Source: Siphonodentalium dalli
Taxonomy: Eukaryota > Mollusca > Scaphopoda > Gadilida > Siphonodentaliidae
NCBI GenBank assembly: GCA_032622095.1
Contig: CP136069.1
Coordinates: forward strand, 40,710,194 to 40,774,193
DNA: 64,000 nt
Direction: 5' to 3'
Of the stretch, positions 27,059-64,000 are shown in pieces. How positions within the stretch are numbered: position 1 is the stretch's first letter; every line of letters starts with the position of its first letter. A program made the position numbers and the translations under genes. A model generated the notes under the pieces. It was not told where the DNA came from. It worked only from the letters and a program-made list of their open reading frames with translations, and ran no database searches.

Positions 27059-27087
27059 TATACGGAGTTCTCAAAATATATAGTAGA

Positions 27088-28389: not shown

Positions 28390-28940
28390 GTGAGTAATCC
28401 ATTTACGATGCGGTTGACAACATCTAAAAATTGTTTTAAACTGCACCAAAAGGCAGTGTTTGAATGTGTTTATTTTGTTCGCACCCGAATCTCTGTCATA
28501 TTTAAAAATGTTGTTTGACGTTTTCTAAGTGGTCGTCTTTAAATTTGAACCGAATTTCCTTAGTGGGCTTCTTAACACTGTCTATACTACAGCATCATTT
28601 CTATACTAAAGTATCATAGGAAACGTATTATCTGAAAATTCCCTCAATAAACAGGACGCTTTCTTCATTGTATTATATGTCGTCTGCTTATATTATATGC
28701 ACATCCCTGCAAAACAATAATAGGCCATTCCGATGTGCACGTTTAACTTGGTGAGATAATCCATTAAGATTAGAAGGGGTTAATTGAATTACGTGTATCG
28801 TGAGTAGTATATTTACTGATTTCTGGATAACAAATTTTATTGATTTATTTTATGGAAGTACAAAGTCGTCGCTAGGCATTACTGCTTAGGCACTACTGCT
28901 TGTGACTAACCCTACGTTAGTCAAGTTGCCTAATTTTGTC

Positions 28941-29635
28941 TTAGTGTGTAAGATTGATCTGTTTTCTTGTAGTTTCTTTGTTGTTTTCTTTACAGTTATT
29001 CACTCGTTGTTCTAGTTTCAGCATATTTGACTCTATTCTTGCCATTTCAGAAGTTTTTGTTTTCCATTTTTGGCCTGATTTTTCTCCAATGTTATCTATG
29101 TGCTCATAGCGCTGATTCACTTTGATTTTAATACACCCATCAAATTTGTCCTTATTTGCTATAACTCTTTTCCAGTAACTTTTCGATATGTAACATCCAA
29201 ACTCCAATTTCCTCCGAACTTAATAGTCCGGCATTAACTTTGCGTGTGTTCATTTCTACCCGCTTCTTCCATGTTTGATCCCAGTTCTTCTTTCGTTCCA
29301 ATAGCACTTCGTCTTCTGTAGTGGTTTTCATTTTATTTCCATGTCGTATTGGTGTCTTTCGATGGAATGATCAAAAGCTGTGCCAAATATTTCTGCCTCG
29401 TGTTCGAAGTAGCCTAACTTCATGGGAAAGTCATCTTTGCCATCTCTCGTTCTGAAATGAGAAGAAGTTTGGTTTTTATACTCATGCCTCCTTTGTAACG
29501 ATTACATTCCAAACAGACATGCACATTGTTTCTATTGAAAACTAATAGGAAATCCTGCAGTACAATTGGAAATCGACTTATACATGTAACTCGCATACTG
29601 ATGTACGTTTCCATGTCACTGCCGTACACTACCAT
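28941..29635 (-). pseudogene. Unrecognised decayed coding sequence, copy 1
   Basis: Several minus-strand frames follow one another with protein-like content: 29,635-29,420 (HVCLECNRYKGG), then from about 29,459 DGKDDFPMKLGYFEHEAEIF, then about 29,332-29,170 (LLERKKNWDQTWKKRVEMN), then 29,207-28,941, a lysine/glutamate-rich helical segment (EMARIESNMLKLEQRVNN, coiled-coil-like). This looks like one protein cut by frameshifts, or exons in different phases; tctcatttcag at about 29,460 could be an acceptor. I do not recognise the family. It lies antisense to the receptor-like gene. Confidence 0.4.
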
Positions 29636-29933
29636 GCTATAAACAAGCCAGAATTTTAGTGATAAAAGTCGTCAACGTGGCAACATGTTATACAGTGATA
29701 TAACCGTTAGAACGAAAGCTAAATGTACCATGAACAGAAAATGCACATTGAAGTGGCAGATGGAATTGTTTACATGCGAGTTTTCTGAATTATTTTTATA
29801 AATAACAGTCACTCAGCTGATAAAAGTATATAATTCAAAATATATCCCCTATGGGAAATACCACTACATAACACATCTATTGTACATAGATAGTAAGTAT
29901 AATCCAGAAACAAAGTACACTAATCCCAGTTTC

Positions 29934-30120
29934 ATGAAAGCAACTTATTATATAGTTGGGACTTAAGATGGTCTTAAGTTCAAATTTCAATCATAAGTGA
30001 GTTTCACGAACAAGGTTTTAACTTTTGCTGATCTTAACTTTGGTCTTAACTTTACATCTAGGGTGATCGAGATGTCTGGAGATAATCTTAAAGTTAAGAC
30101 CTAAGTTGTGATCCGCCTTT
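29934..30120 (+). repeat. Interspersed repeat with CAGTTTCATGAA end
   Basis: Starts cccagtttcatgaaagcaa and continues with repeated cttaag/taagac boxes. The same end, inverted, closes the repeat at 60,255-60,412. A duplicate is at about 43,818-44,008. Probably a MITE or SINE family; boundaries are uncertain. Confidence 0.55.
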
Positions 30121-30175
30121 GGACAGAAATCTGGATAGGATCTAGTTCGTGTATATTAGTATAAATAAATTGAAC

Positions 30176-30574
30176 TTAACCCTTTACCCAACAGAAGGGC
30201 CCTGTGCCAATGCATTCTCTTATATATGCGAGTCGACCATAGGTCGCCTCGCATATATAAGAGAATGCATTGGCTTAACACATTCAAAATTATAAAATTG
30301 TTAAAGAATGTAAGAAAAAATGGTAAAAAGTGTTAAAAAAAGAATTTATTTAGGCCAATGCATTCTCTTATATATGCGAGGCGACCTATGGTCGACTCGC
30401 ATATATAAGAGAATGCATTGGCACAGGGCTAACTGTAACTATCACAATGTGGTCAAGGAGCCGGTTCCAATGATATCCATATTTGTATGGTTCTATTGAG
30501 ACAGACCGAAGATATTTTAGGCTGTTGAAGCTTTATTTGGCCGGTTCTGGCCGGTTTGTTGGGTAAAGGGTTAA
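30176..30574. mobile_element. piggyBac-like MITE with mirror-image hairpins (copy 2)
   Basis: 399 bp including TTAA at both ends; TIRs CCCTTTACCCAACAG. Two 69-bp hairpins lie at 30,206-30,274 and 30,354-30,422. Each has perfect 27-bp arms, one mismatch, five more paired bases and a three-base loop. The second hairpin is the reverse complement of the first, so the element is a palindrome of palindromes around an A-rich spacer. No ORF. Confidence 0.85.
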
Positions 30575-31559
30575 CAGGAAGGATGTTCCAGAAATTGTAT
30601 TAATCCATACCCAGCTGGCACATGGCTAGTGGTTGCGCGATTGGCGGGGTGTCCACTTCTAACTATAAACCACCAAGACCGGACTTGGACATCATTTGTT
30701 TTAATTCCTAGATACAAATCACACAATCTCACTGTAGACAGTAATCATGTTATGATAATTGGTCCGAACATTTTCACATCAAGGACAATATAATAGGGAA
30801 TGGTTTATACTCATCTGTTTGATAAATTCTGAAGCCGGCTAATATATATTAAGGCTCGGTTGAATCTGACTGCAACCGAAACATGAGTTTTATTTGTTAG
30901 TGATTATCCATTTTCCTTAGAAGTAGATATGAACGACGAAGAACCACTGACTGCATGGCTCACATAGACACACACACTACCACTCTACTGCACAGATCAA
31001 CAATACAATACAACTAGAGGTCAAATTCCATGGAATCAGATATACTTCCACGGTATCCCATTCCATGTGTATACATGTACATGTAGGTGTGTTCCTCTTC
31101 ATGCGAATGCATACTGGTGCTCTGTGTTCTGATGATGGACTTGAATTAACATTTCTAAATAAGATATATATTCCAAACGTTTATGTCATTTGGTTCGACC
31201 CAGCGTGGATGGTTAATGACAGTCTAATGCATCATGGTCCTGACCAACTGGGCCACCGTTCACCCAGCCAAGCTTTCAGTTTTTTTAGGACTAATTACAG
31301 CACCTAAATCCTGTTCAACGGTCACGAAATTTGGCATGTTTGGTGATATCGTAATCTACATTTAAATCAATGGGTGGAAGACATATTAATGCACCAAAAC
31401 TCTGCTATTGCTCATTTTTTGATAATTTTTTTATATTTCTTTCAGTTTCGGATTCAGAATCTTTTAGAAGTTTTACTATATGTATTTCAGTGCGTTAGTG
31501 TCGTTAGCGTCTCTGTAATAGAAAGTTAACTGTTATCGAGAGATAACTCTATCGCAAAC
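30575..31559. other. No gene confirmed
   Basis: Holds a plus-strand ORF at 31,065-31,307 (copy 44,953-45,195) whose middle, IYIPNVYVIWFDP, faintly recalls the P..xIW.PD segment of Cys-loop receptors. No acceptor in the required phase 0 is visible, so I do not call it an exon. Confidence 0.35.
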
Positions 31560-32575
31560 GATAACGCTAGCTGAGTGCCTACCCTTCCGCTCTAAAACTT
31601 GGAAAGTCACACTACTGTTTTCCGTATATACTACACAACACATGCACTAGATTCGCGATTTTCCTTTTTTTCCCTTTTCGGTCGAATTTGGCAAAAATCC
31701 TCAACCCTCACCGAGGCGTAAGCGCCCTCACCATTGGGCAGGTTGCTGTCATGGTAGAGCGGTAGAACTTTTGGGCCGTAACTATGGAATATCTATGTAC
31801 CTGCTCATAGATTAGCCTTAATCCTTTATAAGCCCGTTTTAGATTGGCGTCAAGAAGAGTTAGTTTGAATTTGAGTAATATAGTACCGTTAACAACATTA
31901 CACCCTACCAGGAGTAAACCGTTCACTCTAAAACTTTGAAAATCGTATTAAAGTTTCGCGTGGATACTGCTTACCATGCACGTCCACTCATCAAAAAGTA
32001 TTTATCTCAATGTTTGATTTTTGGAGTCATTTCCCCATTTAATATTCGGGTGGAATTCACCAAGTCTGAATCCACGCCGACGCAGGGTCTCCGTTGAGCA
32101 GGTTGTATTTATAGTAGAGCGGTCAAATTTTGGAGGCGTACCTACAGTATACGGACTTACATGCCCCTGTATTAAACTCGCTCCTTCATTAGCCCGTTTG
32201 GATTTGGGGCTAAAAATAGGTTAGTGATAGACTACTTAAGTATATATATTTATGTTATATAGCGTTGTCACGAGTAAACCGTTCCATCTGAAAATTAGAA
32301 AATCGCAGTCTAGATGCGCGTGAACACTACTCATCAGATGTACTCGTCAAAAATATTTTATCTAGATGTTTGAATTTTGCCCCCTTGCGATTTTCGTGGA
32401 ATTTTCCAAAAGTCTCAACCCACCCCGACTCGCATTCTCCGTTGGGCAGGTTACTTTTAAAGTATATAGCTATCAAACTTTGGGGGCGGACATAGAGTAT
32501 GCCAACGTACCTGCTACGGCATTACCTTTGGTCTTTAATTAGCCCGTTTGGATTTGGCGGGAAAAATAGGTGCAA
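31560..32575. repeat. Diverged ~355 bp tandem repeat, three units
   Basis: Boxes recur with a period near 355 bp: (t)gggcaggtt at 31,735 and 32,446 with gagcaggtt at 32,096; gtagagcggt; ttagcccgttt(g/a)gat; gtaaaccgtt; cactcatca. Units differ by roughly a quarter, so the array is old. In copy 2 it is split at 45,885/53,809 by the retrotransposon. It shares no sequence with the satellite at 1-6430. Confidence 0.75.
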
Positions 32576-33601
32576 TATTTCCGTTCTCCGTAAAGCGAAA
32601 AAGCATCGGAGAACAAACTTTTAAGCGGCATATTCGAGTCAGAATCACTCTTCCTATTCGGAATATGCGATAAAAAAATAATAGCGCTGGAGACTTATGA
32701 AAAAAAAAACCTCAGTTTATACATCCTGGTGTATGGTGTTTGCCTATCTATGGGCGGTAACTCCGCATGGAAAGCGCGGACACAAGTTTTGATGCCCGTG
32801 GGTAGTAGGACATATCGAGGCGTGCATACGGTCCAATTTTCGATGCTCTACTTCTTATAATTTCAGAGAAAATAAAATGACAATTTTTCAGATAAAGGGA
32901 GATAGGAGATTCACTAGCATTTATAAGATTGTTCAATTCGCCGATATCCAACAAAGTTATATATAGTCATCTCCCAGGCCATCCCCATGTCGTTCTAAGG
33001 AGTTTTTGGCATTCCAGTCTCGACAAATGGTGACCGAATTAAGTCACTTGAACAATTATTTCTTCTCAACTGTCATATTTATATGGGGATGGAAATCAGG
33101 GCATTCCTATAATGATCTAGCAACACAGATACATAGAAGAAAGCATTAAAAGTATATTTATATCAATCTATTTAAGAGATACATATATTCATTCAAACTG
33201 AGGGACCTTGAATCGTCAGAGGATTGCATATTAGAATGGCTCATGAGTATATTATAACATTATTGAGTCTGTCCCATTCAATATAGTTTCCACACAAAAA
33301 GTTACAATTGCCAGGAGATATGGAAATGTAGAGCAGGCCTGTTCAAAAATAGTTGTCACAGTGTGCAGTCAAATATGGTTACTTCTGAGATAAAGGTAAA
33401 CGCAGTCCGTGGCACATGACTTTTCAGGATCCTCCAATAGTGATATCTGACAAGGGTATATCTGCCCGATACAGAGGATTTCTTTCATTTTTTAGCACAG
33501 ACTCATCGCCTAACATAAACACAAAATCTCGCTGTGTCGGGCACTTGTAGCTGCTATACCTGCATAACATCATTTCTTTTAAACTGAAAATGATTAGCCA
33601 G

Positions 33602-33603
<2 letters not shown>
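32576..33603. other. No gene seen
   Basis: About 1 kb without recognisable coding sequence or element ends, repeated at about 54,374-55,403. The 68-codon minus ORF at 32,748 matches no family I know. Confidence 0.45.
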
Positions 33604-33637
<34 letters not shown>

Positions 33638-34880
33638 TTTATATAGCGCCTATCCCCCGTAAGGGGCCCTAAGCGCTTTACACATTATATAAATACACAA
33701 GAAATGCACATGCAAAATAATCAATAGATATGTGGAATTATATATACTAGTAATCAGATTTTGTTAGTTTTCTTTGTGTCGGGGTAGCGTCGTCGGAACA
33801 TATAAGTTTTTAATGCAGATCGAAAATCGGTTAGCAAACACGATTGCCGCATTTCATTTGGTAGAAAGTTCCAAATGTCGGGACAGGCTACAGAGAAAGC
33901 TCTGTCGCCGACGGTCATAAGATTTGCACCTTGAGGGCAGAGAAGGGACGATTCACCAGAACGAAGTGTTCGCCGGGGATTGTATGGATATACCAGACTG
34001 TTAATATATTCGGGAAGGGAATCAGAGGCAAACATCCGACGGAAACCAAATGTGGCTATTTTGAATTGTATCCGATCTTTGATAGGTAGCCAGTGAAGGT
34101 CGGCGTGCATGGTTGTTACGCTACAGCCTTTTCTTCTTCGAAGTACAATTCTGGCAGCGGTGTCCTGCAAGCGTTGAAGTCTGCTGATTTGCGAATCGGG
34201 GAGCCGGAATAATAGTATGTTACAGTAGTCTAGACGACTCGTAACAAACGAAGCAACAAGTTTTTTTGCTGCGTCAACAGTGAGATATTTGCGGACCTGG
34301 CCAAGGCGTCGCAATTCCAAGAATATAGACCTGCAGAGGTGGTCGATATGTGTCTCCATAGACAGTGTTCGATCGAGATGGACTCCTAGATTTTTTACAC
34401 ACGGAGAGAAGATAATAGTGTCACGTTCTGCTTGCAGTGATGTAATGCACAATTGGTTGACAATGGATGGTTTTGCAACCCACGTGACTTCAGTTTTGTC
34501 ATTGTTTAACATCAGTTTATTGGAGGTCATCCAGGTTTTAACAGCGGAAAGACAGCTCTCGATCCTATTCACTAGGTATGAGTCTTGATCGGGTCTGCCG
34601 GAAAGGTATAACTGTTTGTCGTCCGCATACATGTGCACACATATGCCTTGCGATCGTACAACAGCACCGATAGGTTTGGTGTACAGCAGGTACAGAATTG
34701 GTCCTAGAACTTAGCCCTGGGGCACGCCATAATCAAGATTGTAATACTGTGACAACACATTGCCAATTTGTATTCTCTGTTGACGACCAGTTAGGTAAGA
34801 AACGAACCACTGTAGAACAGTACCGGATATGCCGAATCGTGGCATATAGCACCAGAACAGGGGAGCACCTGGACTGTTAA
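33604..34880 (-). pseudogene. CR1/L2-like LINE, 3' part of reverse transcriptase, copy 1
   Basis: On the minus strand, a 294-codon frame (34,638-33,754) opens with the catalytic YADD (MYADDKQLY) and continues with the thumb and C-terminal signature of CR1/L2-type LINEs: LMLNNDKTEV, KNLGVHLD, SRLDYCN, LQRLQDTAARIV, LHWLPIKDRI, RTLRSGESS, DRAFSVACPDIWNFLP, then the stop. Upstream in the same frame are WFVSYLTGR and GVPQG followed by a TAA (34,711-34,713) where a serine is expected, so it is inactive. The 3' UTR holds a stem-loop (agcgcc...ggggcc...gcgct) and ends in an (ATT)n tract at 33,604-33,638. The 5' side is interrupted by the MITE at 34,881. Confidence 0.88.
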
Positions 34881-35786
34881 CAGAGGCGGACTGGCCGATC
34901 GGGAGACCGGGAAATTTCCCGATGGGCCGGAGGCCGGAATTTTTTTTATTCCACGTGATTTTCTATCAAGCGAGAATCCGAGGGGTTTTTTTTACGGTTT
35001 GGGGGGGGGGGGTATATGTGGTTGGGCCGCCCAACCACAACTTGGGCCGCAAATGAAACCGACGTGGGCCGCCACATGTGTTGTTTAACCAGCCGTGTAT
35101 CCAATAAGATGGTACTCTTCTCACATAAATTCATGAGGGCAGAGGCGGACTGCATGGCCGATCGGGAGACCGGGAAAATTCCGGACGTGGGCCGCCACAT
35201 GTGTTGTTTAACCAGCCGAATTGGCTAATCGTAATTTTGACATTAAATGAACTTGTCGGCATCATATAACACCACGTAAAGACCCCATTAATCTCGAGAT
35301 TTTAACGGTAACTCCCAGCTGTAAATCCCAAAAAAAATCTTACGCACCCCTCCCCCAATTGAAATTTATAAGAAAATAGGAACGCTTCAGTTGATGCCAG
35401 TCTAGTTTATCGGATTCGAGATTTTCTTGTATAGTTTTCAAAATGTTCTCACCCGGGCCGAACAACCATGAACAGCCCGGTGTGTCCTGGTCTCTTGTCT
35501 GGAGTTAGACCGCTAGATGTTAGATTTTATGCAATTTTTCAGGTAAAAATATCTGAATGGTCTCATACCGGGAATATTAGAACCATGGTTTATGAATATA
35601 TAGGATATTAGACCAGAGGTGCAAATGGAATTATGCAAAAATATGTATTTGGTCTGATTCTGATTCAAGGGGGGGGGGTGCAGTTGGAATTTTCCAAGGT
35701 GGATTGTGGACCCCCCCCCCCCCCCAACAAATGGGCCGGTATTATATTAATTTCCCGGGCCGGTTTTTTGGCCCAGTCCGCCTCTG
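34881..35786. mobile_element. hAT-like non-autonomous element inside the LINE, copy 1
   Basis: 906 bp with ends CAGAGGCGGACTGG and, inverted, CCAGTCCGCCTCTG. CAG-starting ends suit the hAT superfamily. The LINE boxes cctggact (34,868-34,875) and cctggaca (35,787-35,794) look like an 8-bp duplication, though five extra bases (gttaa) lie between the left box and the terminus. The left part is itself repeated inside (about 35,140-35,219), and the interior has G and C homopolymers (34,999; 35,711). Short ORFs here are not genes. Confidence 0.72.
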
Positions 35787-35870
35787 CCTGGACATATCTT
35801 TAAAACATCTGTATCTTCATGAAGATATGATAAACTAGATAATATTGATTGATTGATTGATACATCTCTA
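35787..35870 (-). pseudogene. LINE fragment beyond the inserted MITE
   Basis: Directly after the MITE the minus strand continues the LINE frame (SYLHEDTDVLKICPG), joining in sense to the part at 34,880. It then ends in a tgat repeat. The LINE is therefore 5'-truncated close to here. Confidence 0.5.
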
Positions 35871-36182
35871 TGTAAAACACAATTGTCGTCTTTTATTTTT
35901 TCGAACTAATGTGTTTATGATGTTCATGTTTCACGCTATAACGTCTGAAGTATTCGCAGTTGTAAATAAATAAATACTTCTTTATTGGTGGGACGGATTA
36001 AACGCGATAAACAAAATGATAATCGCTCCGACCTGACAAGGTGGGCCACTACGTATATTCCGTGTGTAAGAATTATGTTTTGTGATGCCATTTGGATATA
36101 CAATTTATCAGAATACGTGTAACACTTTGAGAGCAAGGGTATTCTCTATTCCAACCAAATATCCGCAGAGGGTTTCACATTA

Positions 36183-36216
36183 CTTTAACCTGGGCAACGC
36201 CGGGTAACCCTGCTAG
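36183..36216 (+). mobile_element. Helitron 3' end, different family, copy 1
   Basis: A stem-loop cctgggcaacgccggg, spacer and CTAG at 36,213-36,216 followed by T form a classic animal Helitron 3' terminus. I could not place the matching 5' TC end to the left. The ~40 bp minisatellite begins about 60 bp downstream. Confidence 0.65.
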
Positions 36217-36274
36217 TAATATAAATGTATCATTGTTGAACAAACAGTTGTACATACATAAATAATCATCAAAA

Positions 36275-36670
36275 GCATAATCATTGGTCGAGGATAGTCG
36301 GATCTGACATAAAGCATTATCATTGGTCGGGGATAGTCGGAACTGACATAAAGCATTATCATTGGTCGAGAATAGTCGGATCTGACATAAAGCATTATCA
36401 TTGGTCGAGGATAGTCGGATCTGACAGAAAGCATAACCATTGGTCGAGGATAGTCGGATCTGACAGAAAGCATTATCATTGGTCGAGGATAGTCGGATCT
36501 GACAGAAAGCATAATCATTGGTCGAGGATAGTGGATCTGACATAAAGCATAATCATTGGTCGAGGATAGTCGGATCTGACATAAAACATAATCATTGGTC
36601 GAGGATAGTCGGATCCGACATAAAGCATTATCATTGGTCGAGGATAGTCGGATCTGACATAAAACATTAT
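36275..36670. repeat. ~40 bp minisatellite, 10 units
   Basis: Ten copies of a unit containing cattggtcgaggatagtcg and gatctgacata. One unit lacks two bases (gatagtggatc). The 73-153 codon ORFs here are repetitive readings (YPRPMIML, SSTNDNALCQIRL) and are not genes. Confidence 0.93.
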
Positions 36671-37036
36671 ACAAACGCCTTTTCTCTGGGTCATCTCCCG
36701 AGTTATATTTGTGGCCATTTCAAGATAGTACCTGTCTAAAACTTGTACCCCGATGGGCCTCATGAAGCTACGATCATATATATGATTGTATACTTCTGTA
36801 AGCACACAGATACATATTGTAACCTGTTGACTTATGCTATTTTGTTTGCATTTAAAGTGTTATTAGACATACCGTAGAATGGTTAATATGTTCCAACGCC
36901 AAATTTGTTGTCGGGAATTGTTGCATTGTTCATATGAACCGCTTCGATGCATCGATGCATTTCTTAAAGACGCTATATATATATCCTCCAGGTAGCAATT
37001 CCAAGAACGACAGAATTCCTATGAAACACATTATGA

Positions 37037-37284
37037 CCCTTTCGTGATTGGAGCCGCGCTGGTTCAGCATTAAATATCCTGTGCCAGTGCATTCTCGTAT
37101 ATATACAATTCACCCACATGGAGTGTCGCATATAAGAGAATGAACTGGCTTACAAGGTAAAGATATATATTGTTTATTGCATTCTCTGATATATGCGAGG
37201 CTCCCTATGCGATACTCGCATATATAAGAGAATGCATTGGCACAGGGTTTTCGCAAAATTTCAGGAAGCTCCAGTCATGAAAGG
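37037..37284. mobile_element. Second hairpin MITE family, copy 1
   Basis: 248 bp with imperfect TIRs (CCCTTTCGTGATTGGAGC and, inverted, CCTTTCATGACTGGAGC) and two internal degenerate hairpins built on the same gcattctctnatatatgcga arms as the TTAA-flanked MITEs. The flanks (ttatga, attaat) could be decayed TTAA sites. It is probably an older relative of the piggyBac-like family. Confidence 0.6.
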
Positions 37285-38599
37285 ATTAATGTGTGTTTGA
37301 TGTAAACATATTTATTTGCATCCAGAATTAAATGCAGGGGATTGAGGCACAAGTTACAAAACTTATCTTGGTCTCGCTCCCGGCAATAATATATAAAGAA
37401 CATATTTACATAAGTATAATGTAAGGTACGATCCACTTGTATAAAAAGTAGTATACAATATATATGGAATTATGATATAACAGATGTATATACATGATGT
37501 GTCGGGTCCATCACTGTGCGTCCGGGCGTGCTTCAACTGTATTGCTAAAACAATGCAAGACGTGGATCTCAGATCCAATGTATAACATTTATTACATCTG
37601 AATCACGTTTGTATTAACTATGAAATAAAAAAATATCTCATATATTCAATATATAGAACATATATCACTAAGAACCATCTATTCACTTATTGTTAATTGT
37701 AAACGCTCTTTACTCAAATTCGTCGCTGTGGTTTTATCAAAACATCTATGCAAAATTGTTGTTCAACGTAGCCCTGTGCGTATATTTTCGAAGTTCACAC
37801 GCAATTTATTAATTATAACAGCGTTTGGCATATTTGTCAACAGAAGCAGAGCAGATGGCATTAATGTAATTTATATATGGCTTCTACAATTATGTCTCAG
37901 ATTGGAAATAAGTCTATTTGGAGCATGTTATGAAGATCTATTCACATTACAGTAATATACATAAAGAGCTTTTTGTAACAGTATTCCATGACTGTTGGAA
38001 TTTAATAAAGAGCGTTTAGCTCGGTGCTTCCGTAATGGTGTATTGCGTGTGCATGCCATTGTGGGGAAATATTCGGTTTCCTATAGAATTATAGATGCAT
38101 CAAAGACGTATAATGTATTAGAATCTAATATCATGAACCCGAAAGGAGCGAGCATATGCCCTGGCCTTAGTGGCATGCACTATAGGTGACGGATCAGCTC
38201 CAGAGTTATGATGTATATATTGGGGCTCGTTCTATTTGTATATAATAGGTATCGGAAGCATGCAGCTATGTGTGCATGGAATATGACGTGAAAACATAGC
38301 ACCATGCATAGCACCATGCAGTCAGTATTCTGATTATCGCCATTTCATTACAATATCATAATTATGCCTCGACACGCTCTATTATCTATCACCAGACAAT
38401 ATACCTAGGCATATAGCAGACACAAAACCAATATTGTCAGCGCATAGCTGTAATAAATTGTCGCGAGCCAGTCTAAAAGCGCGGGAACTTAACTTTCAAC
38501 TTAAGATGGACTTAAGATTTTTGTTTATGAAACGCGTTCGCGAAACGGAAAAGTGACATCATAAGACCCATCTTACATCTTAGATTAAGTCCATCTTAA
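37285..38599. other. No gene recognised (end of duplication copy 1)
   Basis: ORFs of 60-75 codons (37,728 and 37,995 plus strand) recur in copy 2 but carry no known motif. The last ~150 bp belong to an interspersed repeat rich in cttaag boxes. Confidence 0.4.
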
Positions 38600-45885: not shown

Positions 45886-46220
45886 GTATTTATGCTTAGA
45901 CACCCCACAGTAAGGTACCGCATCAAAGTGTTTTCTGTATATTATCTGCGTACTACCCGTATTGCCCTTTTATTCTTAAGGGTTGAACTTATTGCGGTAC
46001 CTCCTTCTTTTTGGTTCCGCTTGGTTTGTTAAACAGATAACCCGTAACACAGTGTATCGTTTCAAATGGACTCTCAGGCATGAGCACTGAGAGCCGTATA
46101 TTTAATTTATATTAAGGTATATAACATTAATAATTAAACCAAAATGGTATAAAATTATAAATGAAATACTTATATTATACGGGTAATATTGAGAAACAAA
46201 GGTGAGGGCTATAACAGGCC
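45886..46220 (-). repeat. Split direct repeat B2 (335 bp)
   Basis: Matches 46,716-47,050 with one clear mismatch (ttggtttgttaaac against ttggttttttaaac). It is the outer 3' end of the element in its own orientation. The terminal gtatttat is also present in the empty target. Confidence 0.93.
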
Positions 46221-46357
46221 CCACACAGAGAAATGAAGTTGAAGATGGTGGGTAACCAGTAGCTGAAACTACGAAATGTTAGACCTGGAGAAGAGGGCTG
46301 AGCAAATAGCTGCGAAAGACCCTGACGCCAGCAATCAAGGGGGGGGGGTTGGGTGGG

Positions 46358-46723
46358 AAAAGAAAATTATGTGTTTTCGAAAATAAGGGAAGTCTAACGT
46401 GTTGAATAAATGTTAAGTTAAATAATTTTTGTTCCCGTAATATAAACACGACTTCCCTCTTTAGATTCTCTACGCAAAAGATCGAATTAGGAATATTTCA
46501 TTTAGTCATCCAGTGAAGACTATTTTTGTAACTCCCTTTCTGATTGGCTGAACCCCACTGACCTTTATCTTCGCCTCACCGATTGGCCCTCAGCGTACCG
46601 GCCTTAATTACGACAGCCTTGACCTTACCCCTACTGTTGTTTACCTCAGAATACGACAAAATATGGTTTGGGAGTCTTTGCATAAAGCTAGCTATGGTAC
46701 CTTGCCCAAAGCTGTGTATTTAT
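46358..46723 (-). repeat. Split direct repeat A2 (366 bp)
   Basis: Matches A1 at 53,443-53,808 with one clear mismatch (cgcctcacc against cgcctcagc). It overlaps B1 by the 8 bases gtatttat, so the A2/B1 joint reproduces the junction of a circular intermediate. Confidence 0.93.
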
Positions 46724-47050
46724 GCTTAGACACCCCACAGTAAGGTACCGCATCAAAGTGTTTTCTGTATATTATCTGCGTACTACCCGTATTGCCCTTT
46801 TATTCTTAAGGGTTGAACTTATTGCGGTACCTCCTTCTTTTTGGTTCCGCTTGGTTTTTTAAACAGATAACCCGTAACACAGTGTATCGTTTCAAATGGA
46901 CTCTCAGGCATGAGCACTGAGAGCCGTATATTTAATTTATATTAAGGTATATAACATTAATAATTAAACCAAAATGGTATAAAATTATAAATGAAATACT
47001 TATATTATACGGGTAATATTGAGAAACAAAGGTGAGGGCTATAACAGGCC
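46716..47050 (-). repeat. Split direct repeat B1 (335 bp)
   Basis: Inner copy of B2. Together with A2 it forms the internal A/B junction required for this class of element to restore both ends during reverse transcription. Confidence 0.93.
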
Positions 47051-47742
47051 ACAACTGCGACTACTTGAACAATACGCAGTGCCCCACCCGGAGGCCAAAA
47101 AAGAAAATGGGGGTTGTAAGTGAGACAGGTAAGGTGCCACAGGCCGAAAAACCGGGCAGTGGAATTCGCCAACCTGATAATGGGGAAGCGAGGTCGGGCC
47201 CCTTGGCCCCCGCCTGAGTTTCACAACGATGAAAAAAGGCCCATGTAATCAATCAGATGAGGCGCCTGAAGAATGAAGATGATCACAATGACAAAGTGAT
47301 GATATGACAAAATAGCCCTATAGCTATACAACCTAATCACGGTAATAACCAGAGCGACCTGCTCAGACGACCGTAAACATCATACGTATCATATCGTACG
47401 AGCAATCAACAAATTGGGCTACTTGCCCGCCAACAAACCAATTTGGTGGGTACATAGCGCACCCCCGAGGAACTACTTGTTCGCTCGGTAAACCGTATTG
47501 CAGCAAAGAGAGGAGCTACTTGCTCGCTCCCAATTGGACCCAAGAGGTCACCGGACCCACAGTGTTGAAAATAAAACCGGGGGTCGTGAAATGAAAAACC
47601 ACCGTGAAACCCGCTGTTGGGTGAAAACGGCAGAAAGAACGACTACTTGCCGTTCCTGCCGTGGTCAGAAAATTTAAAATAGCTAGGTAGTGACTGCCGC
47701 GAAGGAGGAAACCCAGACCAAGTCGACAGGAGGCCTAACCCG
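47051..47742 (-). other. Non-coding 3' region of the element with CTACTTG motifs
   Basis: Between the recombinase stop and B1. On the plus strand it has five CTACTTG boxes (47,061; 47,419; 47,473; 47,516; 47,643), several followed by gctcgct-like sequence. A sixth lies at 51,809 in the other non-coding stretch. No ORF of substance. Confidence 0.6.
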
Positions 47743-48693
47743 TCAGGAGACATGAGACCTCAGGTACTTCCTGAAAGCCTCTGATTTCCACCGGCCCATT
47801 GAACGGATTTGAGAGTCGGTGCATCCGCGGTCAGATGCATCAGAAGCAGCCCCGATACGTAGGCTGTGAGCCGTGTATAAGTGGACTGCGAGCCCGGTGA
47901 AACGGAGTGTTTGCTTGAGCATTACGTCAAACTCCTTGCGATGGATAACCGTACCAGATGCGTTTAAAAATAGAGGGCCGGCAGCGGAACCCCGGACCGA
48001 AAGGTAGTCATTAAGGCGAGCCACTGGACAGATCGTAGTCTCGTCGTGCTGGAAGAACCGGATAAAGTGCGGCTGATTGCCTAGGTTGTGCTTGAAAAAC
48101 CGAAAGGAGACTGTGACAGCCCGGGGTTCGATATTGAGATCGGACAGTTGTAGGGTACGGCCAGCCGCAACTGTTGACGTGGCGCATAATTCCGAAATTC
48201 TGGCAAAAGTGAAAAAGGCGAACGTAAGCATGCATTTAAACAGTGCCTGTCTATAATAGCCAATAGTGCAGTGATCCAGAGCCCCGACTAGTTGTGCCAG
48301 TATCACTCGGGTGATGGGACGCCGGGTATCAGCTAAAGGAGCCAATCGGGAAAACCCGGCGAGTGCTTTTTTCGCAAGAAAGTGTGTTGCAGGATCCTGT
48401 AAACTGCGAGCCTTATGGTAGAAGGCCAATGCGGATACGATGGCCCGTGCCGACTTGGCCCCATATTGGAGTTGAAAGAGGTAAGCTATAAATTGTAGAA
48501 GCAGCGGTAACGGGATCGGTAGCAGTGGAATGACCCTAATCGAGGAGCAAAATGTATGAAAAAGGCCCCAAGCCCGTGTGTATGCAGCGGTCGAACTTGG
48601 AGCCAGAGAGTTCTGTAGGAGTGTCGCTACTGTGGCATCAAGTATTGCGGGGTTAAATGAAGAGGCACTACTGTGGGCCGCCGGTCGCTCCAT
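47743..48693 (-). CDS. Tyrosine recombinase of the Ngaro-like element
   Basis: 316 residues. This is the phage-integrase-type enzyme that inserts the circular DNA copy by strand exchange through a phosphotyrosine link. The N-terminal half (about 20-115) fits the SAM-like core-binding domain. The catalytic half has Arg165 in FARISEL, His276 and Arg279 in HSLRIGAAS, Trp302 in GRWKS and the nucleophile Tyr310 in FRKYLR, so all key residues are present. The frame is intact and overlaps the end of the RT frame by 67 nt in another phase. The start codon is the first ATG in frame; a product made by frameshift or reinitiation from RT is possible. Confidence 0.93.
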   Translation of the reverse strand: MERPAAHSSASSFNPAILDATVATLLQNSLAPSSTAAYTRAWGLFHTFCSSIRVIPLLPIPLPLLLQFIAYLFQLQYGAKSARAIVSALAFYHKARSLQDPATHFLAKKALAGFSRLAPLADTRRPITRVILAQLVGALDHCTIGYYRQALFKCMLTFAFFTFARISELCATSTVAAGRTLQLSDLNIEPRAVTVSFRFFKHNLGNQPHFIRFFQHDETTICPVARLNDYLSVRGSAAGPLFLNASGTVIHRKEFDVMLKQTLRFTGLAVHLYTAHSLRIGAASDASDRGCTDSQIRSMGRWKSEAFRKYLRSHVS

Positions 48694-50411
48694 GGGGCCA
48701 GGCGTTTGAATTTGTCCACCTGAAAACGAGAGAGAGCATCAGCCAGGATGTTATGTGCGGAGGGTATATAGAAAGCCCGTAGTAGTATATTATAATGCAG
48801 CGACGTCAAAACGAGCTGACGTAATAGCGCCAGCATCGATCGATCCTTAGTGGACTGTTTGTTGATCACAGCGACCACAGCCTGGTTGTCTACGTATAGG
48901 AGTAGGCGTTTATTTTGCATCTCTGCCCCCCACAGAGACAAAGCGAGGACAATTGGATAAAACTCGAGGGTTGCGATGTTGTGAGATTTAGTCGTGTCAA
49001 AAGGCCCGTACACCCATTTATTACCAAAAATGGCACCGAAACCCTTGGACCCTGAAGCATCCGTTACGAGCTGGAGGGTATTGCTAGATATCCATTTTTC
49101 CTCTAAGAAAAAAGTGCACCCATTGTAATCGTCTAAAAAGTTGAGCCACAGTGTAAGGTCGGCCTTGGCTTCTTTGGTTATCCGGATCCTATGGTGGGGT
49201 TTTGAAATGTTGATGGTCAGATTAATTAGACGGCGTAAGAACGGTCTGCCCGGTAATATTACGGAGCAGCCGAAATTTAAAACGCCAATGATGCTCTGAA
49301 GTTCGACTAGCCGGGCCTTTTTGCGTTTGAGCATCTGGTGGATGCGGGTGCGGCAATCGTCCAGTTTTGCTTGTGGGAGGCGCGCCTGCATTATAAATGT
49401 GTCTAGCTCGATGCCGAGAAAAACTACAATTCTATTTGGTAAGACCGTTTTTTCGTGAGCCATTGGTAAACCGATCGATTGGCAAAGCTGGAGGAACCGC
49501 TCGAGGGACTCTCGACAGGCGAGCTCGGTAGATTCGACAATACAAAAATCGTCAAGCATATGGACCATGTGTATACCCAGCTTATTGCGAGCTACCCACT
49601 CCAGTGCGGAGCTAAATTTCTCGAATAATTGAGCGCTACTGGCCGCTCCAAAAGGGAGAACCTTATCGTAATAATAAAAGCCATCCCATTGGAAACCGAG
49701 GAGATATTGGTCCTCGGGTCGAATAGGTAAATTCCTGTAGGCCTGAGCTATGTCACAGAGAGCCAAATAAGGGTGAGCCCCTGCCTTTTGAATTAATTTA
49801 ATTGCATCTTGCACGGTGGCATATCGGACCGAAGAGAGCTGTGCCGGGATGCCGTCGTTGACGGAGAAACCTTCAGGGTGTGATAAATGGTGAATGATCC
49901 GATATTCCCCAGCCGTCTTTTTAGGAACCGCCCCAAGAGGAGAAATTTTGAAATGGGGAACAGGTGGGCAGGAGAAAGGCCCTGCTATGCGGCCTAAGAG
50001 TAGTTCCTGCCGTATTTTAGCGGTGACTGCTTCGGGGTGTTGATATGCGGACTGCAAGTTTTTCGTAGATGGGAGCAACGGACAGCCATGAAAACCGATT
50101 GAAAAACCGTGTGAAAAACCCTCGACCAGAGCCTCCGCCTTGCCTCGATCATAACCGACCAAAATGGTCTTTAAATGGCCAACATCGATCGGTGTACAGG
50201 TGGAGGTATCCCATACAAAATCAGAAATGCCAGGAAATGGTGGAGAGAGAGTACCGTCACGAGCCGGCTCTCTACTTGAGGGCGGCCGTGACTTAACGTT
50301 TAGATGTTCCGTACCCGAATTTACCACGTTTGCCACTCCGAAAATGCTGACGACAGAATTTTGCCGGGTGAGAGCCCATATTGCATTTGTAGCAAACGTG
50401 TTTATAAACAC
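48627..50411 (-). CDS. Reverse transcriptase-RNase H of the Ngaro-like element
   Basis: 594 residues, uninterrupted. It copies the element RNA into DNA. The RT core runs about 130-345: GPFSCPPVPHFKISPLGAVP (residues 144-163), first catalytic Asp220 in LALCDIAQAY, LPFGAASSAQLF, and the catalytic pair Asp287-Asp288 in HMLDDF. DIRS-type enzymes use LDD-like motifs in place of YxDD. A connection region is followed by RNase H with Asp451 (LVTDASG), Glu483 (TLEFYP), Asp508 (LYVDNQA) and Asp558 (LADALSRF), the DEDD set. There is no DAM methyltransferase domain, unlike DIRS1 proper. The frame overlaps the gag end (50,293-50,411), and the first 55 or so residues may be gag-overlap sequence rather than true protein. 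Confidence 0.94.
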   Translation of the reverse strand: MFINTFATNAIWALTRQNSVVSIFGVANVVNSGTEHLNVKSRPPSSREPARDGTLSPPFPGISDFVWDTSTCTPIDVGHLKTILVGYDRGKAEALVEGFSHGFSIGFHGCPLLPSTKNLQSAYQHPEAVTAKIRQELLLGRIAGPFSCPPVPHFKISPLGAVPKKTAGEYRIIHHLSHPEGFSVNDGIPAQLSSVRYATVQDAIKLIQKAGAHPYLALCDIAQAYRNLPIRPEDQYLLGFQWDGFYYYDKVLPFGAASSAQLFEKFSSALEWVARNKLGIHMVHMLDDFCIVESTELACRESLERFLQLCQSIGLPMAHEKTVLPNRIVVFLGIELDTFIMQARLPQAKLDDCRTRIHQMLKRKKARLVELQSIIGVLNFGCSVILPGRPFLRRLINLTINISKPHHRIRITKEAKADLTLWLNFLDDYNGCTFFLEEKWISSNTLQLVTDASGSKGFGAIFGNKWVYGPFDTTKSHNIATLEFYPIVLALSLWGAEMQNKRLLLYVDNQAVVAVINKQSTKDRSMLALLRQLVLTSLHYNILLRAFYIPSAHNILADALSRFQVDKFKRLAPWSDRRPTVVPLHLTPQYLMPQ

Positions 50412-51724
50412 ACCCAGTACACACCAAGCCGGTGTGGAACCTTACGCAGAAACCACGAGGAACTGTGGTAGCTTTCTGCTTTGATGGAATGTTATGTTTT
50501 GTAGCCTCTGGCTGTTTTTCAGTGGCGTGTTTGTCGAAACGGGCGTCCATCCACAGCATCTGGTGGATGTCGCTCCAATTTATGGGATGGCGCTCTTTAA
50601 GTTTACGGAACTCTCTATCGTATTGGGCCCAATTACCCCTACCGCGCGCTATCGTGCGTATGTTAGATTGATATTTTAACATCTGCCGGGCCACAAGGTT
50701 GGCCGGGTCCCCGTTCTTTTCCAGATAGGCTTTGGGTGGCAAGCCAACACAGGAGTGTTAGTCTGCAAACCTTCCATGGCTAAGGTGTACCCCGGTGAAG
50801 AATTGTTGGATGGCAACAACACCTGGAAGTCAATAAATTCCCCCGCCCAGATTTTTTCTTTAATTTTTTGGGGAACCTGATCTTCGAGTGGAATCGACGG
50901 AGATGTGAGGACCTCGGTGCATGGTTCCAGGGGTGGTGTGTACTGGGAGTTGGGATCACTATGTGCGGCTTTGACATACGTAGCGACCAATTGTTCAGCT
51001 AGTGATGACAATAACGGTAGATTTAAATGGCCCGCACCTGGTAACTGAGAGCTGCTATGGCTGTGGGAAGGCTGTCCAAATCCTGCCGAAGAAAAAAGTG
51101 GCATTCTGGCTGCCGGGCTGTGTGAGAGGCTAGTAATCGGCCGACTGCCCAATAACTGGTTGGACGACACGCTATAAATGGGCATGCTCTGTCTCGACTG
51201 AGGCACAGTGGATAGCGGAAGAGCCTGCCATGGCTGTCCCCTAGCTGTGGATGGTGAAATTGGAGACCAGGGTCGAGATGGTAAGCCGATAAAAAGTCAT
51301 GGTCGCCCGTGGCACTGGTAATGGCAGCTACTGTCAAAGGTGGGTCGTAACATACAGTAGTTGGAGGGGCCAACGAAGAGCGTGGTCTCCTGACTGCCCT
51401 CGGTCCGGACTCCGGCGAGTACCATGTCTGCCACGGAAAAGTGGGAGGTGGAAGTAAAGCACCACCAGTAGAGGCCTCTGTGCGAGGTCCCGATGACACC
51501 GTAGTCACTGTAGCCGCACCGGTAATGCCAGTGGGAGACTGAGTTGAGATCGGACGCTGTCTGGTGCGGGTTGTAACCCGGTCTGTCGCTGATGGCTCGA
51601 AAAATGTTGACAGATCATCATGCAAATCCTCTACTCGAGTTCGCCGTTTCTTGCCTGTGGTGAGTGCATGTCGGCCAGACCGTTTGGGACCCATTTCTGC
51701 AATAAGAATTGGCCCATAAACCAT
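50293..51724 (-). pseudogene. Gag-like gene, apparently frameshifted twice
   Basis: Three frames in series: 51,724-51,023 (start MVYGPILIAEMGPKRSGR, basic, Ser/Thr/Pro-rich), then the frame of 51,206-50,676 (which can be read back to about 51,290; ends with IKEKIWAGEFIDFQVLL), then 50,742-50,293, with YDREFRKLKERHP..W..IHQMLW typical of DIRS/Ngaro gag and a zinc knuckle C-x2-C-x4-H-x4-C (CYKCNMGSHPAKFC) at the C terminus. Frame changes fall near 51,250-51,300 and near 50,745. Because RT, recombinase and hydrolase are all intact, these could be sequencing errors, programmed shifts or early decay. Gag would package the element RNA. Confidence 0.82.
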
Positions 51725-52510
51725 AAAGTGTCAAACTGAGCTGCCAATTGTCTCTAGTGACATCTCACCTGTTAGTCACCTCCCCCGGGACTATACGCGC
51801 CGGGCTCGCTACTTGTTTGCCTGCTGGACGGAATGTTGTCAGGGGAAGAGAATTTCGGTAAAACAGGTACTGCGCCGTATCTATATAAAAAATAGTATCT
51901 CCCAAACAACAAACCTTATACCACATGTAGCCCCCTCCCGTGTCCATATGTCCTATGTCCTATTGGACACGAATGAGTCCTATTGGACCCTAAAAGCCTC
52001 TAAATGAGCCACTCGTCTGAGTCTACATATGAAGTACACGTCAATATGAACGGTTCTAAATGCCCGTCTGCCTTCGTGGACAACTCAGGAGAATAAGGAG
52101 GGTGCATACCGGTATCAGGGAGGAAAATTTGTAAGACCAGCTATTAGGCCGGCAAAAAAAACAAACAAAAAAAACAAAAAAAAAAACAAAGGCAGCGTAC
52201 CCACAGAAACTCTCTTTTCCTGTCCGCCGGATGTCGCCGAGGGAGCTGATGACTGACCGACAAACCTGTGCCCGTTATAAGGATACATACAAATATCGAA
52301 AAATTATCCCCTGACGAGAACAGTAATACCATGGACTTGTGTCATGGTGAATGAAATATAGGAATATTGTTATGATTTATCGAATGGCAGTCCGGAACAT
52401 GGTTGAATGTCTTTTGATTTGGTAAGTATACAACCGAGTATTACAAGGAGCAGCCACCCGTTCCTACTGTGTGGTATATGTAATAAACGCCAGGGCCCAA
52501 ATATGTGGCC
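51725..52510 (-). other. Non-coding stretch between hydrolase and gag frames
   Basis: 786 bp with an AAC-rich run near 52,155-52,195 and one CTACTTG box at 51,809. No ORF that I can support. Confidence 0.5.
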
Positions 52511-53209
52511 CTACCGGGTAAATGATGGGTCGTTAAATCGACCCACCGCATGCAAAATAGCACCCCGTACACTACGGTAGAACAATTTCAAACCAGCCTC
52601 ATTTAAATGGATGCCATCAGGTAACAACTTCATGAGGGCCTTATTGCCCAGACCAAAATGTGGCCAAAACGCCAACTGCGAATGTAGCAGAGGCGGCATT
52701 GCTCTGCAAAATTTCCGGAGCAACCGATTCACATAAGACATCTGTCCATTATATACATGGGGCGGCTTTGGAGAGGTAATCCAAGTGGGGCGACCGTTAC
52801 GCCTGGACCTGACCCTGAGACTGAGCTTAGCACGTGGAAATAACTGCCCTATAAATACCAGTTTCACCCCCAATTCCCGTACCAACCTCCGTGCCAAGGT
52901 CAGAATTTTGGCTGCCACAGTCACGCTGTCTGAGCCGGGTAGCGAGAGTTCGTTGCCACCAATCTGTAAAATGACAATGTGAGGCGCGAAACTCGCCACC
53001 TCGCTCAGGACGGACTGGTGCAAATGTTGTACTGTCGCCCCACCTGTACCCAACAATTTGATCTCAAAAGCCCCCGATTTTTTATTGGTGTCCAGATTGA
53101 AAGAATTGAAGGCATTGGTGAGGGGCGGGAGTTGTAAAAAATCAGTCCCCAAACGCCGAACAAAACTATGACCCCACACCAAAACCTTCAACCCCTCAAA
53201 GGGAGCCAT
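52511..53209 (-). CDS. SGNH (GDSL-type) hydrolase ORF of the Ngaro-like element
   Basis: 232 residues, intact, first ORF after A1. It has the four SGNH blocks: nucleophile Ser15 in VLVWGHSFVRRL (block I), Gly56-57 in LLGTGGATV (block II), Asn86 in LQIGGNELS (block III) and Asp198/His201 in LPDGIHLNEAG (block V). The family cleaves ester bonds through Ser-His-Asp with Gly and Asn forming the oxyanion hole; the substrate here is unknown. Hydrolase ORFs have been described in some Ngaro-group elements and esterase domains in some CR1 ORF1s, but their role in transposition is not established. No signal peptide. The first ATG lies about 235 nt inside A1. Confidence 0.88.
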   Translation of the reverse strand: MAPFEGLKVLVWGHSFVRRLGTDFLQLPPLTNAFNSFNLDTNKKSGAFEIKLLGTGGATVQHLHQSVLSEVASFAPHIVILQIGGNELSLPGSDSVTVAAKILTLARRLVRELGVKLVFIGQLFPRAKLSLRVRSRRNGRPTWITSPKPPHVYNGQMSYVNRLLRKFCRAMPPLLHSQLAFWPHFGLGNKALMKLLPDGIHLNEAGLKLFYRSVRGAILHAVGRFNDPSFTR

Positions 53210-53442
53210 GAACAGAGATATAACAGGTCAGATAACGACCTAGCAATTGCTTTTGCGTAGGAAAACACTTGCGGCCGAAAAAACGTTCGAAAAGTTCCAT
53301 AAAATTTAAAAAATAATAAAATACCGCAACTGAGTGCAAATTATTTTTTAAATATGGCGCTCTATAAATGGATTAGTCCAACTATCGATGTGTCAAAAGG
53401 ACGCTGAACGCCGGTTAACGAACGAATGGGCCGCAAGAAGAA

Positions 53443-53808
53443 AAAAGAAAATTATGTGTTTTCGAAAATAAGGGAAGTCTAACGTGTTGAATAAATGTTA
53501 AGTTAAATAATTTTTGTTCCCGTAATATAAACACGACTTCCCTCTTTAGATTCTCTACGCAAAAGATCGAATTAGGAATATTTCATTTAGTCATCCAGTG
53601 AAGACTATTTTTGTAACTCCCTTTCTGATTGGCTGAACCCCACTGACCTTTATCTTCGCCTCAGCGATTGGCCCTCAGCGTACCGGCCTTAATTACGACA
53701 GCCTTGACCTTACCCCTACTGTTGTTTACCTCAGAATACGACAAAATATGGTTTGGGAGTCTTTGCATAAAGCTAGCTATGGTACCTTGCCCAAAGCTGT
53801 GTATTTAT
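53443..53808 (-). repeat. Split direct repeat A1 (366 bp)
   Basis: Outer 5' end of the element in its own orientation, presumably carrying its promoter. Ends gtatttat next to the host ctcaatg. Confidence 0.92.
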
Positions 53809-58027: not shown

Positions 58028-58085
58028 TAATATAAATGTATCATTGTTGAACAAACAGTTGTACATACATAAATAATCATCAAAA

Positions 58086-58442
58086 GCATAATCATTGGTC
58101 GAGGATAGTCGGATCTGACATAAAGCATTATCATTGGTCGGGGATAGTCGGAACTGACATAAAGCATTATCATTGGTCGAGAATAGTCGGATCTGACATA
58201 AAGCATTATCATTGGTCGAGGATAGTCGGATCTGACAGAAAGCATTATCATTGGTCGAGGATAGTCGGATCTGACAGAAAGCATAATCATTGGTCGAGGA
58301 TAGTGGATCTGACATAAAGCATAATCATTGGTCGAGGATAGTCGGATCTGACATAAAACATAATCATTGGTCGAGGATAGTCGGATCCGACATAAAGCAT
58401 TATCATTGGTCGAGGATAGTCGGATCTGACATAAAACATTAT
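58086..58442. repeat. ~40 bp minisatellite, 9 units (duplicate)
   Basis: Same array as 36,275-36,670 but lacking the unit that begins accattggtcg in copy 1. Confidence 0.93.
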
Positions 58443-62339: not shown

Positions 62340-64000
62340 TAAATATTTAGTTATATAACATGATATGTTATGTGAGTCTATACCTACTGGTTATATGAAG
62401 TATTATTCAAGTATAATAGGACATATTATCTAGTATGTGAGTCTATACTGACTGAAATATTAGTCTAGTATGTGGGCTTATACTGACTAATTATATGAAG
62501 TATTATTGAAGTATAACATGATATATTATAATCTATTATGTGAGTCTATAATGACTGGTTATATGAAGTACCATTCAAGTATAACATGTTATATTATAAT
62601 CTACACTGACTGGTTATATGAAGTACTATTCAAATATAACATGTTATATTTCAATCTATTATTTGAGTATACTGTCTGGCCATATGAATTACTATTCAAG
62701 TGAACATTTAGGTACATAACATGACATATTGTGTGAGTCTATATCTACTGGTTAATTGAAGTACTATTCATTATTCTAGTATAACATGACATATTATGGT
62801 CTATTAAGTGAGTTTATACTAACTGGTTATATCAGATACTGTCCAAGTGGAACATGATATATTGTAGTGTACTACGTTGGTCTAGAATGTCTACATTGTA
62901 GTATATTCGGTCTGGATTGACTGGGTATATAATATAAACTACTATTCAAGTACTATTACATGATGTATTATGGTATACTAGTACTATGTGAGTCTATACT
63001 GACTGGTTATATGAAGTACAGTTCAAGTATAACATGATATGTTATAATCTATTACTAGTATGTGAGTCAATACTGACTAGTGATATGAAGTAGTATTCAA
63101 GTATAACATGATATATTATAATATGGTATGTGAGTCTATACTGACTGGTTATATGAAGTACTATTCCAATCACAACATGATATAATCTGTTTTGTGAGTC
63201 TGTGCAGACTGGTTATATGAAGTACTGTTCAAGTATAACATGTTATAATAGAGTATACTGTCTGGCCATATGAATTACTATTCAAGTGAATATTTAGGTA
63301 CATAACATGATATATTATGTGAGTCTATATCTACTGGTTAATTGAAGTACTATTCATTATTCTAGTATAACATGATATATTATAATCTATTAAGTGAGTT
63401 TATACTAACTGGTTATATCAGATACTGTCCAAGTGGAACATGATATATTGTAGTGTATTAAGATGGTCTAGAATGTCTATATTGTAGTATATTTGGTCTG
63501 GATTGACTGGGTATATAAACTACTATTCAAGTACTATTACATGATGTATTATGGTATACTATGTGAGTCTATACTGACTGGTTATATGAGGTACAGTTCA
63601 AGTATAACATGATATGTTATAATCTATTATGTGAGTCTACACTGACTAGTTATATGAAATACTATTCAAGTATAACATGATATATTATAATATGTTATGT
63701 GAGTCTATACTGACTGTTTATATGAAGTACTATTCCAATCATAACATGATATAATATATTATGTGAGTCTATGCATACTGGTTATATGAAGTACTTTTCC
63801 AATCATAACATGATATAATATATTATGTGAGTCTATGCAGACTGGTTATATGAAGTACTATTCAAGTATAACATGTTATATTATAATCTATACTGACTTG
63901 TCATATGAAGTACTATTCAAATATAACATGTTATATTTCAATCTATTATGTGAGTATACTGTCAGGTCATATGAAATACTATTCAAGTGAATATTTAGGT
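62340..64000. repeat. AT-rich ~68 bp minisatellite with higher-order units
   Basis: About two dozen degenerate copies of a unit containing gtgagtctatactgactgg, ttatatgaagtactattcaa and gtataacatgatatattata. A longer block starting gtgaacatttaggtacataa at 62,700 recurs at 63,287 and restarts at about 63,988, giving spacings of ~587 and ~701 bp. It runs off the right edge of the window. Confidence 0.92.

Follow-up and report, generated by a model that had tools for sequence, protein, structure and literature searches.

The stretch of DNA analysed in this study, hereafter the window, comprises 64,000 nucleotides of the scaphopod Siphonodentalium dalli (assembly GCA_032622095.1, contig CP136069.1, positions 40,710,194 to 40,774,193 of the forward strand). 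It harbours a retrotransposon with a tyrosine recombinase (YR) that lies within one copy of a long duplication, the other copy of which has the empty site. The element consists of the following features, given in window positions:

45,889 to 53,804, minus (coding) strand: Ngaro-type YR retrotransposon, delimited by the rule found for its family (left end starting with TTTAT, right end closing with GTAT, one T shared with the target)
45,886 to 46,220, no strand (window orientation): split direct repeat A1, with the core GTATTTAT at its start
46,221 to 46,357, no strand: X, the stretch of 137 bp between A1 and B1
46,358 to 46,723, no strand: split direct repeat B1
46,716 to 47,050, no strand: split direct repeat A2; its overlap with B1 at 46,716 to 46,723 is GTATTTAT, with the crossover T at 46,719
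47,743 to 48,738, minus strand: open reading frame (ORF) of the YR, 331 amino acids (PF00589, E 1.7e-4, under the Pfam cut-off; R..HxLR..W..Y recognised by eye)
48,627 to 50,441, minus strand: reverse transcriptase/RNase H ORF, 604 amino acids (PF00078, E 1.7e-13; RNase H weak, E 0.12)
50,293 to 51,730, minus strand: three overlapping open frames in the gag position, with no credible Pfam match and a role suggested solely by that position
52,511 to 53,227, minus strand: SGNH/GDSL hydrolase ORF, 238 amino acids (PF13472, E 1.1e-10)
53,443 to 53,808, no strand: split direct repeat B2, with the arm GAGTCTTTGCATAAA at 53,757 to 53,771, the core at 53,801 to 53,808 and the crossover T at 53,804

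Judged by its sequence, the element is a Ngaro-type YR retrotransposon, a known class of the DIRS order, and the split repeats together with the reverse transcriptase, YR and SGNH ORFs bear out the original prediction on this point. The split direct repeats are arranged as A1-[ORFs]-B1A2B2, an order that is reversed in the window because the coding strand is the minus strand. A tyrosine recombinase takes the place of a DDE integrase (the PF00589 match is below the gathering score, and the catalytic residues were assigned by eye) and is accompanied by a reverse transcriptase with an RNase H, the latter being a weak match. No DNA methyltransferase domain was found at E <= 1 in a Pfam scan of six of the eight listed ORFs, and the insertion has no target-site duplication. 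Inverted terminal repeats and internal complementary regions would be expected of a DIRS1-like element, but no inverted repeat of at least 25 bp was reported in the element, which has only a cryptic one of 13-15 bp.

The presence of a filled and an empty site in one window, which had been predicted from the letters alone, was confirmed by direct reading and by self-BLAST, in which 25,483-38,599 aligned with 39,383-60,372 and the element interrupted the match at 31,998-32,005:

25,483 to 38,599, plus strand: duplication copy 1, empty (self-BLAST)
31,998 to 32,005, no strand: empty site GTATTTAT in duplication copy 1, with the crossover T at 32,001 (direct reading and self-BLAST)
39,383 to 60,372, plus strand: duplication copy 2, filled (self-BLAST)

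Read directly, the empty copy has ...CATCAAAAA-GTATTTAT-CTCAATG... at 31,998-32,005, and the filled copy has CATCAAAAA-GTATTTAT-GCTTAG... on the left at 45,886 and ...GCTGT-GTATTTAT-CTCAATG... on the right, ending at 53,808. The core GTATTTAT is common to the empty site, both element ends and the internal B1/A2 joint, where the same eight bases had been foreseen and were found at 46,716-46,723; zero bases are duplicated. The split repeats differ by about one base each, as expected (A1 from A2 at 1/335 and B1 from B2 at 1/366 positions), which gives 2/701 (0.29%) compared with 53/12,130 aligned sites (0.44%) for the duplicate copies. These divergences do not order the duplication and the insertion, and of the predicted "recent Ngaro-like insertion" the Ngaro type stands, while its recent date is weakly supported. 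The same pair of sites could have come from precise excision from copy 1, from an unequal exchange involving one filled allele and one empty allele, or from two haplotypes that the assembly placed in tandem. The divergences are compatible with either order of events and an excision at a core matching in all eight positions would be traceless, but the window contains no N anywhere, and the 783 bp separating the copies have zero matches elsewhere in the window, which means that the copies are not simply abutted. Tandem placement of two haplotypes is therefore unlikely, and we consider this group of explanations as a whole to be improbable. Such filled and empty pairs, which were thought to be rarely seen, are no rarity here: each of the four other sites searched has empty homologues, because all of these sites lie in repeats.

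The rule for the ends was derived from further copies of the family in the one genome examined (2.23 Gb, nine contigs), which were collected by a sequence search (40 of 204 candidates scored) and by two end patterns, with 53 sites of the A type and 71 of the B type. Both ends were available for 34 copies, of which 32 were counted as separate events after L021 and L013 had been dropped as copies of other events. The joint core was GTATTTAT in all 21 joints tallied. Left ends, which are unbiased since the A-end pattern began five bases past the T and beyond the core, carried NNNTTTAT (TTTAT) in 36 of 38 cases, the exceptions being TGTAT in L043 and L053. Right ends carried GTATNNNN (GTAT) in 47 of 49 cases (exceptions L051, GTGT, and L078, GCAT), a count that is partly built in because the B-end pattern included GTAT; among the right ends from the BLAST sequence search, for which the core was not a criterion, GTGTAT was present in 20/20. 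At each of the 32 sites, the left end followed the target up to one T and the right end followed the element up to the same T. The B1/A2 joint and the target recombine at this one fixed base (position 0): the left junction is the target up to the T and then TTATGC, and the right junction is the element up to GTGTAT and then the target. This T is the only constant shared base at both ends, in place of the three identical bases of a DIRS1-like junction. Two pairs of copies, L013/L032 and L057/L034, represent two loci located about 1.6 Mb apart on contig C8 with a common right flank, one of which is without about 21 bp of left flank beside the element.

The original prediction held, in addition, that the circular intermediate and the target share eight bases. 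All eight were matched in only 2/32 separate insertions, those of the window and L017, they were absent as a full match at 30/32 sites, and positions -5 to -2 match near chance, so that eight-base identity is refuted as a family rule, and a mechanism in which circle and target recombine through eight identical bases is most improbable. Full matches are nonetheless commoner than at background T's, only 0.0008 of which agree with the joint at each of the seven neighbouring core positions, because the targets lean towards the joint sequence (mean identity 3.8 of 7 free positions vs 2.2 at background T's). The comparison of site bases with the A/B joint across copies, which had been proposed as a check, therefore revealed a similarity that is real, though not one that always amounts to a match. 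A crossover inside GTATTTAT without staggered-cut duplication is supported: the left and right flanking repeats at the 32 sites were no longer than those of shuffled pairings, on which basis target-site duplication was rejected, and neither duplications of 4-6 bp nor junctions unlike the joint, either of which would have spoken against the prediction, were seen at these sites.

Empty homologues of four joined sites, searched singly, provided a further view of the shared base. Five homologues were read per site (among 34, 11, 40 and 40 matches listed), and exactly one T lay between the flanks in 5/5 for L047, 5/5 for L022 and 4/5 for L012, that is, in 14 of the 15 read at these three sites; the fifth homologue of L012 (L112) had one additional T within a T-run. 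The homologues of L015, which were 80-81% identical, had one G between the flanks in 5/5. A single base, and not zero, two or a doubled core, also restored the motif-bearing reading frame at L037 (zinc finger), L015 and L012 (long interspersed nuclear element); with two bases, the open frame at L037 was longer (93 vs 80 amino acids) but the zinc finger was broken. These one-base empty sites and restored frames signify that insertion is precise, with nothing duplicated, nothing lost and one base shared.

When the 32 targets were aligned on the crossover T, they read Y-A-W-A-A at positions -10 to -6 (A at -7 in 27/32), showed little preference at -5 to -2, had A or T at -1 in 29/32 and A or T in all 32 at +1 and likewise at +2, followed by A (23), T (19) and G (13). 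The resulting preference, CATAA-N6-TTATG, has mirror symmetry about -2.5, with a score that none of 2000 column permutations reached, and CATAA, six bases and TTATG is the layout of a YR site. The crossover T lies at the right (TTATG) edge of the six-base spacer, and the target's spacer stays at the left junction, with the element's spacer at the right one. Random resolution of a heteroduplex would put the element spacer on the left in about half of the cases; the element spacer GTGTA was observed there in 0/38 left ends and, within one mismatch, in 4/38.

The same polarity was found in other families of this genome. In a second family, whose YR is 42% identical, 10 copies were read of 126 A-type and 55 B-type pattern sites; the T was present in 10/10 left ends and the family's own spacer was on the left in 0/10, the right ends having been picked with a pattern that holds the T. 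One of its left ends, L157, has TGTAT. The replacement of TTTAT by TGTAT at L043, L053 and L157 is the identical change three times in two families. Six other families, the second family included (one element each; YR 34-47% identical), were taken from the 6 of 13 loci in which both repeats were clean. They have TTTAT in their joints, and in 6/6 the left spacer is unlike the joint and the right spacer is equal to it. Recombination products of the window family and the second family thus show a single polarity.

The donor site of this reaction, the B1/A2 joint, can fold into a structure of its own:

46,667 to 46,740, no strand: joint hairpin, with outer stem arms at 46,672 to 46,686 and 46,719 to 46,733, an inner stem between them and three unpaired bases directly 5' of the T at 46,719

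Joints were folded as DNA over the stretch -50 to +22 relative to the crossover T. The window joint reached z-scores of -3.7 and -3.9 on the two strands (0/200 shuffles each), whereas the shorter stretch 46,684-46,760 without the left arm gave -0.74 and 0.00, so only the longer stretch folds. The outer stem is the A/B inverted repeat: in seven families, the start of A has an inverted copy in the end of B, 22-32 bases left of the T, and the inner stem lies between the arms. The 15-mer arms agreed within their own families at 12, 10, 13, 10, 13, 13 and 13 positions, and the arm score was reached by 256 of 2000 shuffles in L136, 38 in L143, 3 in the window and 0 in the other four families. From a further 17 loci, nine joints beginning with TTTAT and that of L174 were folded, and L139 was added from the first set; no joint was obtained from L169, L171, L175 and L177, and L141, L179, L181 and L184 were tested apart. 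The hairpin shape with z <= -2 was found in 13/18 joints, three of the 13 being near relatives of others, and these joints, together with the two-sided changes in five related families given below, combine a conserved structure with a variable sequence in the manner of integron-type sites. Each family's own B paired with its own A better than in all 20,000 re-pairings (15 families), and the inner part was more stable than shuffles (Fisher p 9e-7 over 13 families; singly below 0.05 in 4/13). At the stem junction, more unpaired bases were on the side of the crossover T in 13/17, equal numbers in four and fewer in none; the T usually borders a small bulge. In five related families, from which the structure itself was derived, 12/24 pairs changed on both sides (0/500 shuffles), and 90.8% of cells were paired vs 78% in shuffles and 31-44% when slid; within the window family alone, covariation was weak, with one pair two-sided in 3/21 rows and broken in 8/21. 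In the six of seven complete elements with a folding joint, inserted left ends did not fold (z -0.6 to 1.1) and inserted right ends folded less (z -2.1 to 0.9). Most families possess, on the joint strand, an asymmetric hairpin with covarying pairs that has the crossover T at its stem edge and is missing from the inserted ends. As joints fold and inserted ends do not or do so less, the hairpin is a feature of the place at which B and A adjoin, the point where recombination of a circle would occur.

Alternatively, the hairpin may assist in making the circle or have a role in the RNA, for instance as a splint for the ends of the complementary DNA (cDNA), in packaging or in 3' end formation, and be unrelated to strand exchange. 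The arms are located at opposite ends of the linear element, the ends of which would be joined by their pairing, the joint is internal to the element and hence in its RNA, and covariation does not distinguish DNA from RNA. On the other hand, the crossover base is at the stem edge in nearly all folding joints, which would be needless for a purely RNA role, and we find this alternative doubtful. A second alternative is a conventional two-strand recombination in which the circle is double-stranded and the overlap measures six bases; the heteroduplex would always be corrected one way, by ordered exchange or nick-directed repair, and the hairpin would simply be the recombinase arms. The target does resemble the YR sites described in PMC3212892, which typically have two inverted arms 6-8 bp apart, and PMC9345347 reports a strict exchange order with a 6-bp spacer for bacterial SE elements. 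The donor fits poorly, as its arms are 22-32 bp apart in seven families, not 6, and the sequence separating them makes up an inner stem in which pairs have changed on both sides. Moreover, target and joint are identical at only 1.13 of the 4 spacer positions -5 to -2 vs 0.99 by chance, and one sense of correction would be needed in 38/38 and 10/10 left ends, which makes this explanation rather unlikely.

The reading that we favour, with a probability of roughly 0.6, joins the fixed-base crossover and the palindromic target, both of which were observed, to an exchange of one strand and a donor presented by the hairpin, both of which we infer. In tyrosine recombination, each spacer edge is the place of one strand exchange, with cleavage on the 3' side of an arm; where the crossover of the products is confined to one edge, a single exchange determines the result. 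At the crossover edge, TTTAT is common to donor and target; at the opposite edge, the target has CATAA and the donor a poor version at best (AAGCT in the window). The recombinase would exchange only the coding strand, 3' of CATAA, beside the half-site common to circle and target. As the donor's second half-site, six bases away, would be poor or missing, the second exchange would not occur, and replication or repair would finish the insertion. The joint hairpin may present the donor to the recombinase, perhaps folded and single-stranded, as in integrons.

Several observations weigh against this reading. One-strand exchange is read from the constant edge, and an ordered two-strand exchange with biased repair would give the same products. 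A or T at -1 in so many targets shows that similarity next to the T helps. The joints of L143, L176 and L139 do not fold, L178 has the right shape at z -1.25, L174 takes another shape, and only L141 folded among the four unclear joints tested apart. The right ends of L136 and L148 and the left end of L143 also reach z -2.1, and the inner stem is part of the right ends. The fold does not identify the strand, as either strand folds as well as the other, and the covariation shuffles correct neither for the relatedness of the five families nor for the derivation of the structure from them. Finally, a single genome is covered, and no relative was found in the viral contigs searched. A more specific version, drawn by analogy with integrons, is only a tentative proposal: a single-stranded or locally unwound cDNA circle might fold at the A/B joint, one strand would be exchanged at the fixed base beside the bulge, and host replication would complete the product. 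The recombinase would then recognise the donor by its structure and the target by a short palindrome in double-stranded form.

The element resembles published members of the Ngaro superfamily in its split direct repeats (A-ORFs-B-A-B in coding orientation), its reverse transcriptase and YR, its SGNH ORF, which PMC9210276 describes for the Ngaros of Xenopus, and in having no methyltransferase found. The base-level target motif, the constant crossover edge and the joint hairpin of the window family set it apart from the published Ngaro descriptions consulted. In the DIRS1 model, as presented in PMC3266345, a circle recombines, with no duplication, at a junction of 3 bp that it has in common with the target. 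Circle integration at a short junction and the lack of a target duplication are common to both systems, but one base is constant here and not three. The inverted terminal repeats of DIRS1-like elements are extended at one end, according to the same source, while the inverted repeat found here is cryptic, 13-15 bp long and offset by 22-32 bp at one end. The joint hairpin resembles the folded single-strand cassette site of integrons, attC, for which extrahelical bases, an unpaired spacer and a strong strand preference are reported (PMC6393395, PMC3053210). The likeness is to a bacterial site and need not mean homology, and the single-stranded donor known from integrons is a proposal for the Ngaro element. 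The Vibrio elements SE-6945 and SE-6283 have a 6-bp spacer, with the target spacer kept at one end, the donor spacer at the other and a "strict rule" of exchange order, as stated in PMC9345347. The window element has the same distribution of a six-base spacer; however, the SE elements are bacterial DNA elements without reverse transcription, and their arms lie directly at the spacer.

A literature search, with subscription reviews outside its reach, revealed no description of a target motif or palindrome, crossover polarity or joint hairpin for Ngaro or DIRS elements. The class is known, and the site rules look new. The integration model for YR retrotransposons, as available in PMC3266345, gives little base-level evidence, and the fixed crossover edge, palindromic target and covarying joint hairpin make it a testable mechanism. 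The findings suggest that a eukaryotic retrotransposon has a parallel in the bacterial integrons. They would also supply a rule by which the precise ends of such elements and their empty sites could be located, together with a small, structured donor site suited to oligonucleotide assays.

Judging from the frames recovered, the genome is home to a large set of YR retrotransposon families: a search with the YR gave 122 matches among 121 scored of 1463 candidates, with many intact frames at 33-47% identity. In the window family, solo A-X-B copies some 0.8 kb long are common (L022, L036-L038, L044-L051), and the opposite deletion, with A joined directly to the interior, occurs in L118, L120 and L135. 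Solo AB copies are known from the Ngaros of Cafeteria (PMC8547959), and both types of copy are taken as products of recombination between repeats, as that source proposes for the solo AB copies. Elsewhere in the window, positions 1-6434 are taken up by a long tandem array (period about 360 bp, copies about 97% alike), a short tandem repeat (step about 39 bp) lies in the right part of both duplicate copies (36,272-36,670 and 58,083-58,442), and more tandemly repeated sequence fills the right window end (62,458-64,000).

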